A stretch of DNA of 64,000 bases, taken from contig NZ_CP007174.1 in the NCBI RefSeq assembly GCF_000730285.1, positions 2,666,001 to 2,730,000 on the forward strand, read 5' to 3'. The first letter of the stretch is position 1, and every line of letters starts with the position of its first letter. The notes below the pieces were generated by a model. It was not told where the DNA came from. It made no database searches and saw only the letters and a list, made by a program, of their open reading frames with translations. The position numbers and the translations under genes are program-made. Shown piece after piece: positions 22,863 to 30,376 of the stretch. Source of the DNA: Candidatus Nitrososphaera evergladensis SR1 (GTDB taxonomy: Archaea; Thermoproteota; Nitrososphaeria; Nitrososphaerales; Nitrososphaeraceae).

Positions 22863-23062
22863 AGTCACATATACACGCAAAAGCCTGCAAATCTAACGGT
22901 TCTTGCGTTTCTCATTTTCTGAGATGAGAACTGAAAATACATACGCGCATTCCCTTCCGCGGCAAAATAGGAAGAGAGAGAGAGAGGGGACTGTTGTTGT
23001 TTTGACCCATGTACAAGACGGCTCCAAAAAAACATTTTTTATCAAACGCGCACCAGAACTAT

Positions 23063-24016
23063 ATGCATATGTTGTTAAGAGAGGTGGAGAAGGCGGTAGT
23101 CACCTGCCTGGTTGACAACAACGTAGATGTACTATTGCCAAATACCAAAGTGGCACAGCGGCCCTCTCTGGCAGAAAACTGGTACGAGCAGCCGCTAATT
23201 GCAGAACATGGCTTTTCTGCAGCCATAACAGTGGTAGAATCTAGTAATTGGAAAGAACGCAGAATACTGCTTGATTCAGGTCTGGACCCGCTGGCCGCTG
23301 CCTACAATGCAGACGTGCTTGGCTTTGATCTATCCACCTGCGAGCTGGTTATTTCAAGCCACGGGCACATCGACCACGCAGGAGGTTTGCTCAATATCAG
23401 AAGGAAGATGAACGCAGAACAAAAGATCCCCTTGGTCCTTCATAAAGACGCTTTTAGGAACAGGATGGTCAAGTTCCAGGACGGCAGGACAATAAACCTG
23501 CCGGCTCCAAAAAGGTCTCTTTTGGCAGGGGCAGGCTATGAAATCACTGAAAAGCATTCACGAAGCACATGGCTTGACGACAGCATCCTAGTCACGGGAG
23601 AAATAGCGCGAACAAATAACTTTGAGAAAGGTTTTCCAAACCATTATTCCGAAGCAGAGGATGGAGAGATGGAAAATGATCCGTTGATCAAAGATGATCA
23701 GGCCGTTATATTAAATGTCAAAGGCAAGGGACTCGTGGTCATTACAGGCTGTGGACATGCGGGAATAATAAACACCCTGAACTTTGCAAAAGAATTGACT
23801 GGACAGGACACCATCTATGCCGTGATTGGAGGGATGCACCTGACTGGATCACTCTTTGAGCCAGTAATTCCCAAGACAGTAGATGAATTGGAGAAGTTGA
23901 GCCCCACGTTCGTTGTGCCTTGTCATTGCTCTGGCCTGAAAGCCGCAAATGAAATAGCCGCAAAGATGCCTCACGCATTTACGCAAAACAGCGTCGGAAC
24001 CAGCTATGTCTTTTAG
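23063..24016 (+). CDS. Metallo-beta-lactamase-fold hydrolase, COG1237 type
   Basis: 317 residues from ATG 23063. Metal-binding motifs are intact: HGHIDHAGG (HxHxDH) near 96, TGCGHAGI near 230, GGMHLTGS near 257 and CHCSG near 292. The order and the GCGHAGI motif are those of COG1237, a family including an archaeal enzyme annotated as dihydropterin-ribofuranosylaminobenzene phosphate synthase. With folP-like and mptE genes in the same window a pterin role is conceivable, but COG1237 is broad and they are 15 kb apart. An (AG)7 tract lies upstream at about 22973. Confidence 0.82.
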   Translation: MHMLLREVEKAVVTCLVDNNVDVLLPNTKVAQRPSLAENWYEQPLIAEHGFSAAITVVESSNWKERRILLDSGLDPLAAAYNADVLGFDLSTCELVISSHGHIDHAGGLLNIRRKMNAEQKIPLVLHKDAFRNRMVKFQDGRTINLPAPKRSLLAGAGYEITEKHSRSTWLDDSILVTGEIARTNNFEKGFPNHYSEAEDGEMENDPLIKDDQAVILNVKGKGLVVITGCGHAGIINTLNFAKELTGQDTIYAVIGGMHLTGSLFEPVIPKTVDELEKLSPTFVVPCHCSGLKAANEIAAKMPHAFTQNSVGTSYVF

Positions 24017-24519: not shown

Positions 24520-24546
24520 ATGTGTGTATATATCAATGCCACTAGG

Positions 24547-24568
24547 AAATGGCACATAAAATGGCACA
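24547..24568 (+). repeat. Paired direct repeat upstream of TATA box
   Basis: AAATGGCACA occurs at 24547-24556 and 24559-24568, 12 bases start to start. It lies 6-27 bases upstream of the TATA box, where an archaeal regulator would bind. TGCCA at 24537-24541 is complementary to the TGGCA inside the first copy, giving a partial inverted repeat. Confidence 0.5.
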
Positions 24569-24573
24569 CTTCA

Positions 24574-24580
24574 TTTTATA
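24574..24580 (+). promoter_or_regulatory. TATA box of the NTPase-ABC-M14 operon
   Basis: TTTTATA centred 32 nt before ATG 24609, consistent with a near-leaderless transcript. Confidence 0.55.
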
Positions 24581-24608
24581 GCTGCAAAATCATATTTTTT
24601 TGAGCCTA

Positions 24609-25712
24609 ATGTACTCTCCTCCTCAAAAGGCAATTCTCAATTACGGCAGCCAAACAACAGAGACATCATCGTCGTCGTCTGCATCCGAGATAAAGTGGTC
24701 TTGGGCTTGCAGGATACTTGAAAACGGCAGCAGCTACGGTCTTGACGAAAATGTTTCAAATGTTGCGCCAAAAGCAGGCGACCTTGCGCTTGTAAAAGTA
24801 GATCGAATTGGTTATCACAATTCAATCATAACTGCAAACAACAGAAAATTGCGGATCTACCCCGGCGATCTCCTTGTGGGAGTGTTCGGAAACAGGTATG
24901 CCACCGACGCCCTTGAAGGCGAACTTTTTGGAGTTCAAGACCTCAGCATACTGACTGCAGGAGGCATGATTGGGACTGTAAAATCCCGGCATAAGGAATT
25001 TGGCAGGCCCACCAGCGTTACTTTTGTCGGTTTTCTAAAGAACAAGAAAGGCCTCAAGGTGAATCTTAAGGAACTGGGGTTTCATTTATCGCGCCCAAAA
25101 GGCGCATTGAAGAACATAATCATAATAGTCGGCACAGGAATGAACGCAGGAAAAACGACTGCCGCAAGGATACTCGTAAAAAGCCTCTCGGATCAGGGGT
25201 TGAAGGTGGCAGCCTGCAAACTCACAGGGAGTGTGTCGAACCGGGACCAGGACGAACTAAGATCCGCGTACGCAAGGACTATCATAGATTTCAGCGACTA
25301 TGGGTTCCCGTCTACTTACCTTTGCACCAAAAAAGAGCTGTTTGACCTCTTTGACACCATGGTGGCAGATTTGGAAAAGACAAACCCCGACGTGGTCATA
25401 ATGGAAATCGCGGACGGAATACTGCAAAGAGAAACTGCCATTCTTCTTGCAGAGCAATCCGTAAAAGGCATGATAAAAGGAATAATACTTGCGGCAGACA
25501 GCGCGCCTGCCGCACTTTACGCCGCCGAAAAGATAGAGGAAATGGGCCACAAAGTGATCGCAGTATCGGGCGCGATCACGTCGTCGCCGTTGTTCGTAAA
25601 AGAATTTGAAGAGAACAGCCGCATTCCAGTCTATGCGTCTGTCGATACCGGAAAAGAGCTTGCAGATGCCGTCATGAAGTTCATCGGGGACAGCAGCAAC
25701 TCATCATCATGA
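24609..25712 (+). CDS. P-loop NTPase related to the DUF1611/dethiobiotin-synthetase group
   Basis: 367 residues. The N-terminal 120 residues form a beta-rich domain (DLALVKVDRIGYHNSIITAN; LLVGVFGNRYATDALEGEL). The C-terminal NTPase has Walker A VGTGMNAGKTTAA near 174, KLTGS, DFSDYGFPSTYL, VVIMEIADGILQRETA (Walker-B-like) and VIAVSGAITSSPL. The fold resembles dethiobiotin synthetase/MobB, enzymes that activate a carboxylate or bind nucleotide. Substrate unknown. Its stop overlaps the ABC-transporter start by 4 bases. ATG 24609 is preferred to TTG 24600. Confidence 0.75.
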   Translation: MYSPPQKAILNYGSQTTETSSSSSASEIKWSWACRILENGSSYGLDENVSNVAPKAGDLALVKVDRIGYHNSIITANNRKLRIYPGDLLVGVFGNRYATDALEGELFGVQDLSILTAGGMIGTVKSRHKEFGRPTSVTFVGFLKNKKGLKVNLKELGFHLSRPKGALKNIIIIVGTGMNAGKTTAARILVKSLSDQGLKVAACKLTGSVSNRDQDELRSAYARTIIDFSDYGFPSTYLCTKKELFDLFDTMVADLEKTNPDVVIMEIADGILQRETAILLAEQSVKGMIKGIILAADSAPAALYAAEKIEEMGHKVIAVSGAITSSPLFVKEFEENSRIPVYASVDTGKELADAVMKFIGDSSNSSS

Positions 25713-27631
25713 TGATGGCAAGGATGACGATGACAATATTCAGGCTCCGTCGCCGGCGGGCAGCAACAACAACATCAGTAGAAAACGCGCATCAAAAGGA
25801 GCCGTCAATTTCTGCTGCAAGATATGTATTGACGCACCTGAAAAAGGACAGGCTGAGACTAATCTGGGCGGTATTTTGGTCTGTTGTTTTTGTCATCATA
25901 CCAATGCAGGTGCCCATACTTACAGGAACATTGATCGACGGGATACACCATACAGCGCATCCAAGGATCTATGGCATGATAGATCTTTCATCTTTAACAC
26001 CTCAAGAAACTGTCACCTATGCTGTTATTGGCCTGATGGTTGTCGCGGGTCTGTATGGAACTGCGGCATACTTTCGCACTACTTCTATCGCCAAGGTCAG
26101 CCGGCATTTTGTGTCTGAAATACGAAAGACCTTGATCCAAAAACTAGAGGTACTTTCGCTAGACATTCATTCAAAGTACGGCTCTGGCGAACTCCTCAAC
26201 AGGGCATTGCTTGACACCCAATCCCTAAGGACCTTCATTGAAAGTAGCTTCATCAAGACCGTCGTGAGGGTCGTGCAAATGTCATACCCGATTCTGCTAC
26301 TATTTTTGCTGGATCCTTTTCTTGCCGCAATAGCCTTGTCCGTCCTGCCCGCGCAATGGCTGATAGTGTCAAGGCTGCAAAAAAAGCTGCACAGGACATC
26401 AAGGCGGGCCAAGAAATCAAGAGCCCGTTTGACCACGGTAATAAAGGAAACGCTGGACGGGATAGAGACCGTGCAGACTTCAACTGCAGAGTCAAGGTCG
26501 TTTGAGAAAGTCTCATCCCTTGCTGAAAAAATAGAGTCAAACCAGGTGCAGACTCAAAAGTATGTCGGCATGATAACCGGCGTAGTGTGGGCGTTTACAA
26601 GTTTTGGACTGGCATTAATCTGGTGGCAGGGAGGCCTAAGGGTGCTGGATGGGCACATGACAGTGGGGAACCTGATCCAGTGCAGCGGCCTGTCTTTGTT
26701 CATTTACCAGCCCTACAGGAGCTTTACCAAAGCGATTAATGACTACCAAAAAGGCATAGTTGCAGCAGAAAGAATACAGGAGATCCTAGAAACGCCTTCT
26801 TCAATCCAGGAATCTCCAGACGCCACTCACCTGGATATACAGCATGGCAGCATAGAGTTTAGAAACGTCGCTTTCTCGTATTCGCTTTCTTCTTCAAGCA
26901 ATTCTTCTTCCTCCTCTGCTGCGCCTGTACATCAGGAGGAGCAGCAGCGTTACGATCAAGAAGTACTAAGAGGCATAGATCTAAAGATACCGGCGCATAG
27001 CTTGACCGCAATTGTAGGCAGAAGCGGCTCCGGCAAGAGTACGCTTTTGAAGCTAGTCTCCAGGCTATACGATCCGTCATCGGGCCAGGTCCTGATCGAC
27101 GACCAGGACATAAAAAAGATAAAACTTGATTCTCTTAGGTCGCAAATTGCCGTAGTTCCACAGACGCCATTCATTTTTAGCGGAACTATTTCTGAGAACA
27201 TCAAGCTGGCAAAACCTGATGCCACCGACGAAGAGTTGAGGCAGGCGTGCGAATCAGCCGACTGCTTGCACTTTATCCTAAAACAAAAGAAAGGGTTTGA
27301 AACCCGCCTGGGCCAGGGAGGGATCAGCCTCTCTGGAGGGCAGGCCCAGAGGATCGCGATAGCCAGAGCGCTGATAAGAAGACCGGTGATTTTATTGCTA
27401 GATGAGCCTAGTTCTGCACTTGACTCTGAATCAGAATCTGCAATAATGGCAACACTGTACAATCTCAAGAGCACCATTACGATAATTCTTGTTGGACACC
27501 ACCTAAAAGCAATCAGCAAAGCTGATAGGCTGGTTGTAATGAACGATGGAAAAATAGTGCAGGATGGAACTCACACGGAACTTATTTCCTCTCAGGGACT
27601 TTACAACATGCTTTATGTTGAAAAATCGTGA
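25709..27631 (+). CDS. ABC exporter, fused membrane and ATPase domains
   Basis: 640 residues. About 50-350 is a six-helix exporter-type membrane domain. About 380-640 is the ATPase domain: Walker A GRSGSGKST near 436, Q-loop VPQTPFIFSG, signature ISLSGGQAQR near 540, Walker B ILLLDEP near 563 and H-loop GHH near 600. A Ser/Asn-rich insert (about 393-410) precedes Walker A. Architecture is that of a half-size exporter (MsbA/bacteriocin-export type) working as a homodimer. There is no peptidase C39 domain. Overlaps the NTPase gene by 4 bases, so strictly co-translated. Cargo unknown. Confidence 0.92.
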   Translation: MMMARMTMTIFRLRRRRAATTTSVENAHQKEPSISAARYVLTHLKKDRLRLIWAVFWSVVFVIIPMQVPILTGTLIDGIHHTAHPRIYGMIDLSSLTPQETVTYAVIGLMVVAGLYGTAAYFRTTSIAKVSRHFVSEIRKTLIQKLEVLSLDIHSKYGSGELLNRALLDTQSLRTFIESSFIKTVVRVVQMSYPILLLFLLDPFLAAIALSVLPAQWLIVSRLQKKLHRTSRRAKKSRARLTTVIKETLDGIETVQTSTAESRSFEKVSSLAEKIESNQVQTQKYVGMITGVVWAFTSFGLALIWWQGGLRVLDGHMTVGNLIQCSGLSLFIYQPYRSFTKAINDYQKGIVAAERIQEILETPSSIQESPDATHLDIQHGSIEFRNVAFSYSLSSSSNSSSSSAAPVHQEEQQRYDQEVLRGIDLKIPAHSLTAIVGRSGSGKSTLLKLVSRLYDPSSGQVLIDDQDIKKIKLDSLRSQIAVVPQTPFIFSGTISENIKLAKPDATDEELRQACESADCLHFILKQKKGFETRLGQGGISLSGGQAQRIAIARALIRRPVILLLDEPSSALDSESESAIMATLYNLKSTITIILVGHHLKAISKADRLVVMNDGKIVQDGTHTELISSQGLYNMLYVEKS

Positions 27632-27638
27632 GTGAGTC

Positions 27639-29051
27639 ATGGACCATATCATGCTTGAGCAAGAACACGGTTTTTCCCATCCAGGCAGCTCCTCTGAGAT
27701 AATAGGCTACTCTGAAAAGGGCCGGCCGCTGGTCGTCGGCTACTACTACAATAATGAAGGCAGTCATTTGGATTCAGGCAAAAAAAATCCCAAAGTCAGG
27801 GTCTTTGTCCTGGCGGGACAGCATGGCGACGAGCGGTATGGCAGAAAAGCAGTGGGCAGGCTAGTCAACATTCTTGACGACAACAGCAGCATCTATCAAA
27901 GGGAATTCCAGTCTCTCCAGATAGCCATCCTCCAGGATGCAAATCCAGATGGTGCATCCATGAGGTCCAGGGCTAACGCGTCGGGCATTGACCTGAACAG
28001 GGATCACCAATTCCTGAACGCGGCAGAGACAAGAGCAATGCACTCTTTTATAAGAAAATGGAGGCCGCACCTTGTAATTGATGTTCACAACTACCCTTCA
28101 AAAAGAAAGCATTTGCTGAAGAAAGGGCTGGTGCTTCACCATGACGTATTCGTCGACGTTCCCACAAGCCCGTGCGTCTTTGCGAATCCCTGCATGAACC
28201 AGAAAACACTGGATCAATTTCTGCACGAGATAAGGGCGGATCTGCAGCTTCATGGATTCAGCTGCGAAAGATATTGCATGATAAGGCCATCTGGCAGGGT
28301 CAGACATAGCACGCCGGATGTCATCGACGCACGCAATTTCCTTACTCTCAGATATAATGCCATGACGGTCCTGCTTGAAGGAAGGACCCCCACCCGTAAA
28401 GATGGAGAGCTAAAAAGGGAATTGCTCGTAGCGGCGCAACTTCAAGCCCTCCTGTCCATTCTTGCATGGTCAGTCCGGAACGGGAGCCATCTCCGCAGCA
28501 TTTCCAATTACATTCCCGTCAAAGGGGAAAGGGTGCCTATTCAGTCAAGGTATGCCGCAGCACGCCAGGCGCTCAGGATGAGTTTCAAGACTGTGAAATC
28601 CGATAATATAGAGATTCTTTCATTGCCAAACTATACCCCGTACCTGGAAATTTCAAGGTACGTGGACTTGCCGGCCGCGTACGCTGTTCCAAAGGAAAAC
28701 AAAAAGCTCCTCAATCTTTTGCACCGGCATGGATTTGTGTCCATGTCTCTTGACAGCCCTTGCGCCGAAAGAGCAGCAGTACAGCGTTACTACATACAGT
28801 CTAGAGGCTCAAAACGTGAAAACAAGCCGCAATCAAGAGCTCCTGCCATGGCAGCAATAGTAACAGCTGCTGGGCCGGAGAAAAGGGCGCTTTGTGATGA
28901 CAGTTACGAGATTTTTCCATCAAGCCAACTGGGAGGCCATTCCCTTGCAATCCTACTTGAACCCAAGTCAAAGTACGGTCTTTGCCGGAACAAGCGTTTT
29001 GGTCTTTCCCTTCTCCCAGAGAGCTATTACCCAATTTTGAGGGTCATGTGA
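27639..29051 (+). CDS. M14-type zinc carboxypeptidase/amidohydrolase with C-terminal extension
   Basis: 470 residues. Zinc site: HGDE near 61 and the third ligand in VIDVHNYP near 148; substrate carboxylate site ASGIDLNRDH near 117; catalytic Glu likely in VLLEGRTP near 247. This is the M14/succinylglutamate-desuccinylase group, which cleaves C-terminal amino acids or acyl-amino acid amides. About 160 residues after the catalytic part include YAVPKENKKLLNLLHRHGF, a late M14-associated segment. No signal peptide, so cytoplasmic. It follows the exporter by 7 bases and completes the operon. Confidence 0.82.
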   Translation: MDHIMLEQEHGFSHPGSSSEIIGYSEKGRPLVVGYYYNNEGSHLDSGKKNPKVRVFVLAGQHGDERYGRKAVGRLVNILDDNSSIYQREFQSLQIAILQDANPDGASMRSRANASGIDLNRDHQFLNAAETRAMHSFIRKWRPHLVIDVHNYPSKRKHLLKKGLVLHHDVFVDVPTSPCVFANPCMNQKTLDQFLHEIRADLQLHGFSCERYCMIRPSGRVRHSTPDVIDARNFLTLRYNAMTVLLEGRTPTRKDGELKRELLVAAQLQALLSILAWSVRNGSHLRSISNYIPVKGERVPIQSRYAAARQALRMSFKTVKSDNIEILSLPNYTPYLEISRYVDLPAAYAVPKENKKLLNLLHRHGFVSMSLDSPCAERAAVQRYYIQSRGSKRENKPQSRAPAMAAIVTAAGPEKRALCDDSYEIFPSSQLGGHSLAILLEPKSKYGLCRNKRFGLSLLPESYYPILRVM

Positions 29052-29464
29052 AAAAAGGAGCTAGCGCAACCTTGAGCAGCTGCACACACATATGTGTGTG
29101 CAGTCACTGATTTTTTGGGATACATGTGCGTGTGTGTGGACAAGCCGCCCAGCCCGACTCTCGTCGCGGTATCTTCTTTGGCGGAGCGATTGCCTGTTTT
29201 ATTATTGCTTGTGCAGAAAACACCTAGAGACTTTTCCCGCAACGGCGGTTATCTCTTTAGCATCAGTCTCATTCGTTCGTGGGTCTATCACCACAAAGCC
29301 TAAGATGAGCATTTGCGATTTGATGCATGACCGAGGCGGCAGGGGGCACCACACATTGATGAAGAGTGGCAGACGGGTTATCATTGTTGTTGTACGTGCG
29401 GTTTTGCTTTCAACAAGATTATCGGGACTGGTATTTCCCAGTAGCGCAGCGAGGGGCCACTAAC
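29052..29464. other. 413-base intergenic region
   Basis: Holds a 24-bp perfect palindrome just after the operon (29080-29103), a second TG tract at about 29124-29138, and a weak minus-strand open frame ending at 29202 with protein-like content (GFVVIDPRTNETDAKEITAV, 36 residues from an internal ATG) that could be a relic or a very small gene. No RNA gene seen. Confidence 0.4.
29080..29103. repeat. 24-bp perfect palindrome of CA/TG type
   Basis: CTGCACACACAT runs directly into its exact reverse complement ATGTGTGTGCAG with no spacer. It lies 29 bases after the M14 gene stop. Could act as a transcript-end hairpin, a cruciform or a Z-prone element. Confidence 0.65.
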
Positions 29465-30376
29465 ATGGTCCACATCAGGAAAAACGTCACGATAATTGTT
29501 GTGGCAAGCGCATTGCTGCTAGCGACCGGAGCCATGTTTGTGATACAACAACAAAAGCAGGCTCTGGCAAGGCACACGTCTCCTGACGGACAATCGTCTT
29601 CTTCACCTACACGATGCAACTGCGTAATCTTTAGGGCTGACGACATACAGGACTATTGGAAGCAAGAGCCGCAAGTCGCGCTGCTTGATATTTTCATCAG
29701 CAAATCTGTACCATTATCTGTCGGGCTGGTCATGAACCATTATGGAAGCGACCGCCTCATAGTTGACAAGGTGAGGGAGGGTGGCCCGCTTTTTGAGTAC
29801 GACATACACGGCTGGGACCATGTTGACTATACGACCTTGAGCGCGCAGCAGCAGGAAGAATCGATTAGCCAGGCACAGGCAAAGATAGAGTCAGTCATGG
29901 GCAAAGACGCCAAGGTTTTCTTTGCGCCTTACAACAATTTCGATACAAACACGCTCATTGCCATGAAGCTTGGCGGCCTCAAGATAATCAGCGCCAGCAA
30001 GGCAGACACCAGCCCATATGCTCCGGCCAACGATACTCTTGGGATATTGCACATGCCGCAAAGCATCAACTACGGCTATGCAAACAGCACCTCTGAAAGA
30101 CATGCGTGGCGCACTGTTGCAGAGATGAAAAGCGTGGTTGAGGCAGACATCGAGGTCAGAGGCTGGGCCGTTGTAACGATACACCCGCAGGACTTTGCAA
30201 AGTATGATGATGGAGAAGAAAACGGCGGCAAGATGCTTAACGTCGCAGACGAGCAGAGAGTGGATACATTCAAGACCTTTATCGACCAGCTACGCGCGGA
30301 AGGCAAAACGCTCACAACCTTTGAAGGCGCAGTACGGATCATGGATGGAGATGATGTCCACCCTGATCTACACTAA
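29465..30376 (+). CDS. Membrane-anchored polysaccharide-deacetylase-fold protein
   Basis: 303 residues from ATG 29465; the longer upstream frame is not protein-like. N-terminal anchor helix (ITIIVVASALLLATGAMFV, about 8-26), a polar linker, then a NodB/CE4-type barrel. Motif 1 is IFRADDIQD (two Asp), motif 2 HGWDHVDYT (two His as metal ligands), motif 3 FFAPYNNFDTNT and a late VVTIHPQDF. Expected outside the cell, removing acetyl groups from surface glycans or acting on related sugars. Nitrososphaera-type genomes carry many such proteins. Confidence 0.82.
   Translation: MVHIRKNVTIIVVASALLLATGAMFVIQQQKQALARHTSPDGQSSSSPTRCNCVIFRADDIQDYWKQEPQVALLDIFISKSVPLSVGLVMNHYGSDRLIVDKVREGGPLFEYDIHGWDHVDYTTLSAQQQEESISQAQAKIESVMGKDAKVFFAPYNNFDTNTLIAMKLGGLKIISASKADTSPYAPANDTLGILHMPQSINYGYANSTSERHAWRTVAEMKSVVEADIEVRGWAVVTIHPQDFAKYDDGEENGGKMLNVADEQRVDTFKTFIDQLRAEGKTLTTFEGAVRIMDGDDVHPDLH

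Follow-up and report, generated by a model that had tools for sequence, protein, structure and literature searches.

In this study, we found that three adjacent genes, coding for a P-loop NTPase, an ABC exporter and an M14 zinc hydrolase, form a real, rare and co-inherited unit that appears to have spread horizontally. The earlier note on this DNA had read them as a three-gene operon, and the conserved order and co-occurrence of the genes described below, together with trees free of well-supported conflict, uphold it as a real unit. Meanwhile, we propose that the unit encodes an acyltransferase-like enzyme (the NTPase), an amide-cleaving partner (M14) and an exporter of the product, a reading to which we give a probability of about 0.45. 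The three genes (24600-29051) lie on one strand of the window, the 64-kb stretch of DNA that was analysed, and are arranged as follows.

24600-25712, + strand: P-loop NTPase gene, 370 aa; start TTG at 24600 or in-frame ATG at 24609
25709-27631, + strand: MsbA-like type I ABC exporter half-transporter gene, up to 640 aa
27639-29051, + strand: M14 zinc hydrolase gene, 470 aa

The genome of the window is a single contig of 2.95 Mb, and the GC content is unremarkable. Nitrososphaera and Nitrososphaeraceae records are among the nearest named loci homologous to the trio, which places the host within or close to Nitrososphaeraceae. The ORF coordinates agree with the tight spacing described before: the NTPase and exporter ORFs share the four bases ATGA (25709-25712), and 7 bases (27632-27638) separate the exporter from the M14 gene. 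However, the annotated exporter opens with ~32 residues that its relatives do not conserve. Thus, the true exporter start may lie further downstream, which makes the 4-base overlap uncertain. The intergenic gaps in the trio loci of relatives are about 0-13 bp.

A genome scan with the NTPase as query found eight loci, which belong to Nitrososphaera, Nitrosopumilus, Nitrososphaeraceae and Nitrosotalea MAGs, three Thermoplasmata and one Acidobacteriota MAG. The contig of the Nitrosotalea MAG stops within the NTPase gene. All seven homologous loci with sufficient flank (three Nitrososphaeria, one Acidobacteriota MAG and three Thermoplasmata) kept the order NTPase-ABC-M14, with identities of about 47-62% for the NTPase, about 40-56% for the exporter and about 35-43% for M14. 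This order is conserved across phyla far beyond chance. Furthermore, the NTPase and M14 were jointly present in 3 of 61 related genomes and jointly absent in the rest, and the trees of the three genes showed no well-supported conflict. One weak match to the P-loop only was also seen among these 61 genomes. Of 398 genomes sampled from the phylum, just 1 held a close homologue of the NTPase, and thus it is not a housekeeping gene. In addition, a second exporter-M14 pair (84% identical) was found on another contig of the Nitrosopumilus MAG.

The trio copy of the Acidobacteriota MAG is flanked by bacterial-looking genes, which suggests that the trio passed between domains. Two possible sources were rejected. 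Thermoplasmatota do not form a broad reservoir (1 of 293 sampled genomes), and a viral origin was dismissed since no relatives were found among the viral contigs searched. The sole 'phage' match, MT835675, has bacterial-looking genes around it. The unit is without a name in the libraries and literature searched. A RiPP cluster was also rejected: no conserved precursor or other short ORF was common to the seven trio loci, in line with the earlier remark that no precursor peptide was obvious.

The three encoded proteins

AlphaFold models of the NTPase and M14 were built from 7-9 sequences and reached pLDDT values of 76 and 84, respectively. The NTPase is predicted to consist of a mainly-beta N-terminal domain (residues 31-147) and a C-terminal P-loop domain of the DTB/DUF1611-like type. 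With this model as query, Foldseek ranked dethiobiotin synthetases first (1e-5), and DUF1611 structures were absent from the top 50 matches. The Pfam search returned just sub-threshold matches to CbiA, DUF1611 and MobB, and the NCBIfam search returned neither a named family nor a match to the DgcN model. By these profiles, the NTPase stands outside every named family. Hydropathy showed no membrane segment in it.

The nearest known group is DUF1611/DgcN (PF07755, NF041892), of which the NTPase is probably a remote relative as judged from profile comparison. The DUF1611 score of 21.9 bits is below the Pfam gathering cut-off of 25 bits, and hhalign of the NTPase family against DUF1611 gave a probability of 84% in local and 92% in global mode, with the whole P-loop domain covered. 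When a full DUF1611 protein was compared with NCBIfam, it hit 'N-acetyltransferase DgcN' with an E-value of 4e-138, a score that falls slightly short of the cut-off. DgcN targets the amino group of glutamate. The N-terminal domain of DUF1611 is Rossmann-like, whereas that of the NTPase is predicted to be beta-rich; the exporter and M14 neighbours also set the NTPase apart from this group. The activity of DgcN, D-glutamate N-acetyltransferase, is named as EC 2.3.1.312 in PMC11747546.

The NTPase had previously been described as DTB/MobB-like. This holds for the type of P-loop domain, as Pfam and Foldseek indicate, and one member of the NTPase family is annotated as 'dethiobiotin synthase'. However, it does not hold for the identity as DTB or MobB. 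The scores are far below the cut-offs (17.1 vs 83.3 bits for BioD, TIGR00347; 16.6 vs 76.2 bits for the MobB model), the NTPase has an extra N-terminal domain, and members of the family sit in arginine operons and not in biotin or molybdopterin contexts at the loci examined.

The M14 protein exceeded the cut-off of PF00246 (Peptidase_M14; 45.4 vs 21.6 bits, 1e-11). Its residues H62, E65, H150, N120-R121 and E247 are invariant in the family alignment, so that the HxxE...H zinc ligands and the catalytic Glu are intact. The succinylglutamate-desuccinylase part of its former label did not survive: the score against AstE/AspA (PF24827) was 19.8 bits at a cut-off of 25, and M14 carboxypeptidases and the murein tripeptide amidase MpaA were the best matches. 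The zinc ligands, Asn-Arg pair, catalytic Glu and, by Foldseek, the fold are shared with these enzymes. Nevertheless, M14 is below the MpaA cut-off (31.9 vs 157) and has its own C-terminal region, and its host is an archaeon, in which no peptidoglycan is known to us. According to hydropathy, M14 has no signal peptide or TM segment. Since neither protein has a membrane segment, M14 and the NTPase are probably both cytosolic, and thus the exporter would act last.

The exporter contains ABC_membrane (PF00664, 9.9e-30) and ABC_tran (PF00005, 2e-33) in one chain, as MsbA-type and other type I exporters do, and its hydrophobic segments are visible in the hydropathy profile. MsbA-type models were the best NCBIfam matches, yet the exporter scored below every equivalog cut-off shown (366 vs 602 bits for MsbA, TIGR02203).

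Relatives of the NTPase in bacteria

A profile built from the NTPases of nine trios detected relatives in 81 of the 297 genomes that were sampled from the phylum to which the Acidobacteriota MAG belongs. The tree of 46 family members fell into two starred halves. All of the exporter-associated members, including the window clade, were placed in the exporter-side half. The arg half contained the arginine-operon members, two archaeal paralogues adjoining a RimK-type ligase and one Priestia protein, which has a long branch. Members of the two halves are full-length homologues and share Walker A, K207, G210, D216, F231, D233, G235, PST237-239, E269 and DG272-273 (numbering of the window protein). 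However, the arginine-operon proteins form a separate starred branch (100/99) and adjoin argG/argC, whereas the window NTPase adjoins an exporter. The two types differ at positions 73, 180, 230 and 271 (Y73, C180, S230 and G271 vs H, G/S, D and A), and the window NTPase is just 27-33% identical to its bacterial relatives. Thus, the substrate or the reaction of the exporter side may be different from that of the arg type.

In Acidobacteriota, the arg-type NTPase genes sit among argH, argR, argG, argC, argD, argF and argB (gene names were read from the sequences, with TIGR01850 confirming argC). The arg-type gene was 9-383 bp from argC in 40 genomes. ArgJ was found in none of these 40 genomes, compared with 10 of the 15 NTPase-negative genomes with argC (Fisher p=1e-7, a value that is too small since the genomes are related and not independent) and 14 of all 19 other argC-containing genomes. 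Meanwhile, a GNAT synthase (the GNAT part of ArgA) was present in the arg locus of 0/40 arg-type and 10/19 other argC-containing genomes, where the positions were assigned by eye from tables. Four genomes (G448, G765, G898 and G947) have argC and an exporter-type gene without the arg-type gene, and all four kept ArgJ; G891 and G985 have both NTPase types and no ArgJ. By genome context, arg-type genes appear to replace ArgA/ArgJ in argC-containing genomes.

Since argB, argC and argD act in a pathway that runs on N-acylated glutamate, the most economical interpretation is that this compound comes from the P-loop protein. From this genome context, the arg-type sister group is probably a new non-orthologous N-acylglutamate synthase. 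The family would then answer how arginine synthesis starts in many Acidobacteriota that have neither ArgA nor ArgJ. Although a side finding, this probable synthase may matter most. GapMind and the NAGS review (PMC7311316, PMC4490483) do not mention a P-loop enzyme in the excerpts consulted. In four other argC-containing genomes, the NTPase, ArgJ and GNAT enzymes were all absent, which means that other solutions exist.

Most members of the exporter-side half have an ABC exporter as neighbour, and a hydrolase (M14 or alpha/beta) is frequently present too. For instance, on alphaproteobacterial plasmids of Paracoccus, Sulfitobacter and Tritonibacter, the genes for an alpha/beta hydrolase, an NTPase and an ABC exporter directly follow one another. 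The NTPase belongs to the same half and is directly followed by the exporter, as in the archaeal trio; however, the hydrolase is upstream and of another type than the downstream M14. In some Acidobacteriota copies, an ABC exporter is directly downstream and a peptidase, labelled M28-like from a reading of its sequence, is near. In the arg half, the NTPase gene of a Priestia megaterium plasmid has genes for phosphonopyruvate-decarboxylase-like subunits on one side and for an L-amino-acid ligase on the other. It is part of a phosphonate cluster that also includes PEP mutase, an ornithine carbamoyltransferase, an M20 deacetylase-like enzyme and a LysE exporter. With M14 in archaea, alpha/beta on plasmids, M20 in Priestia and the M28-like enzyme in Acidobacteriota, the family is recurrently paired with an amide- or ester-cleaving hydrolase, as ArgA is with ArgE. 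Neither the exporters nor the hydrolases of the bacterial sets are orthologues of their archaeal counterparts, so the bacterial and archaeal sets may have been assembled in parallel from promiscuous partners.

Proposed function and alternatives

The existence and conservation of the unit, the family relationships, the intact active sites and the displacement in arginine operons are computational results, whereas acyl transfer, substrate and transport direction are inferred. In our proposal, the NTPase would acylate a glutamate-like amino acid or an amine at its amino group, or attach some other carboxylic acid there, and its N-terminal beta domain would probably help to select the substrate. 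Cytosolic M14 may remove the acyl group, or trim at the C-terminal side, after the N-acyl intermediate has done its work; this role is modelled on that of ArgE acting after ArgA. The MsbA-like exporter would then expel the product. N-acylation of glutamate-like amines is favoured by two separate hints, the arginine-operon context and the relationship to DUF1611/DgcN. The earlier note had suggested that the set could make, trim and export an amino-acid-derived molecule. This idea agrees with the contexts of arginine operons, the phosphonate cluster and the hydrolase/exporter trios.

More tentatively, the family may be a hitherto unrecognised P-loop superfamily of amino-acid N-acyltransferases. 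Its arg branch would be a new N-acylglutamate synthase, distinct from both GNAT enzymes and ArgJ, with which many Acidobacteriota begin to make arginine. Its sister branch would have been recruited, in archaea and bacteria, into compact enzyme-hydrolase-exporter operons that produce and secrete an N-acylated amino-acid metabolite, in the present case in an archaeon of the Nitrososphaera type. The arginine-operon sister group is the most useful new fact here, for it makes the NTPase a testable acyltransferase candidate. To our knowledge, few secreted small molecules are known from ammonia-oxidising archaea, and the trio is a compact candidate locus for one.

Could the genes be three unrelated housekeeping genes brought together by accident? 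Each comes from a large superfamily, and archaeal and bacterial sets use different kinds of exporter and hydrolase. However, the neighbourhood data refute this extremely improbable reading. The neighbourhood check proposed earlier was run, and the genes do co-occur (7/7 loci; NTPase with M14 in the 61 relatives), with the same order in three phyla at 35-60% identity, so the objection that they rarely co-occur or are housekeeping genes fails. The rarity of the NTPase in the phylum also speaks against an accident. Self-protection is a more serious option, though in our view an unlikely one. Here the NTPase would acylate a toxic amino-acid-like compound, M14 would cleave toxic peptide-like conjugates and the exporter would pump them out, by analogy with microcin C immunity, which combines the acetyltransferase MccE, the exporter MccC and the peptidase MccF. 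The patchy, horizontally spread distribution, the predicted cytosolic location of the NTPase and M14, the similar sets on plasmids of the three alphaproteobacterial genera and the absence of further biosynthetic genes from the archaeal unit are consistent with detoxification. On the other hand, the members in arginine operons and the phosphonate cluster are biosynthetic by context, and the surroundings of the archaeal unit revealed neither a toxin nor linked biosynthetic genes against which it would protect.

Somewhat less likely again, the NTPase may be an ATP-dependent amide or isopeptide ligase that activates a carboxylate in the manner of dethiobiotin synthetase and joins it to an amine without a CoA donor, after which M14 would trim the carboxyl end of the small pseudopeptide before export. 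The top-ranking dethiobiotin synthetases and the intact Walker A would fit, as would the Asn-Arg pair kept by M14, which binds C-terminal carboxylates in carboxypeptidases. NTPase relatives also adjoin ATP-grasp ligases at three loci (L043, L096 and L136), but there the ATP-grasp enzymes are probably the ligases themselves, which leaves the NTPase another step. Furthermore, DgcN, the nearest characterised P-loop relative, is an acetyltransferase.

Sequence elements around the unit

Three elements described earlier (a TATA-like motif, paired repeats and a closing palindrome) are present in the sequence as candidate elements.

24527-24533, + strand: TATATAT, candidate archaeal TATA box
24547-24568, + strand: two exact copies of AAATGGCACA upstream of the NTPase gene, starting at 24547 and 24559, 12 bp apart
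29080-29103, no strand assigned: perfect 24-bp palindrome past the last gene, candidate terminator or binding site

A terminator-like element was predicted at 29079-29104, over the palindrome. This region folded slightly better than its shuffles (z -1.5), 17 of 200 of which were equally good. The region of the upstream hairpin folded no better than shuffles (z -0.56), so the insulation that the earlier note thought possible is unsupported. Exact AAATGGCACA occurs just twice in the whole window and one-mismatch copies are no commoner than chance, and a window-wide regulon was rejected. A shared regulator was rejected as well: the HTH gene and two small membrane genes that adjoin the trio at L005 and L007 have no counterpart near the window trio. 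The closest HTH homologue is encoded elsewhere in the genome of the window.

Genes flanking the trio and a plasmid cluster

Two genes flank the trio of NTPase, ABC exporter and M14 hydrolase genes in the window, and neither was seen adjoining the trio in the other loci.
23009-24016 (window): MBL-fold protein gene, upstream of the trio
29465-30376 (window): polysaccharide-deacetylase-like protein gene, downstream of the trio
80732-97616 (Priestia megaterium plasmid NZ_CP085446.1): locus L136, holding an NTPase family member

Besides this family member, the plasmid locus includes a PEP mutase, decarboxylase subunits, two L-amino-acid ligases, ornithine carbamoyltransferase, an M20 deacetylase-like enzyme and a GntA-like hydroxylase. 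It is likely a phosphonate gene cluster.

Arginine operons of Acidobacteriota

In the Acidobacteriota arginine operons (L099-L101, L103-L105 and L108), a member of the same P-loop family is present, and ArgJ and ArgA, the usual glutamate-acylating enzymes, are missing. We propose this protein as a candidate new N-acylglutamate synthase, and its importance may exceed that of the trio.

Paralogues, probable loss and probable transfer

In an archaeal genome (L043, 6613-9617), a RimK-type ATP-grasp ligase adjoins two convergent NTPase paralogues. The second exporter-M14 pair of one Nitrosopumilus MAG (L140, G449:C51) is 84% identical to the first; it represents either a paralogue or a strain mixture.

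The trio was probably lost from L044, where an NTPase remnant of 51 residues (G348:C15:27185-27337) lies near an HTH gene and two small membrane genes. The same genes flank the trio of L007. An Acidobacteriota MAG contig (L006, CADECP010000024.1) carries an archaeal-type trio inside it, and interdomain transfer is probable. In addition, MT835675.1 (L139), labelled bacteriophage, looks like bacterial DNA; two-component-type and ferritin-like genes adjoin its NTPase and ABC exporter.
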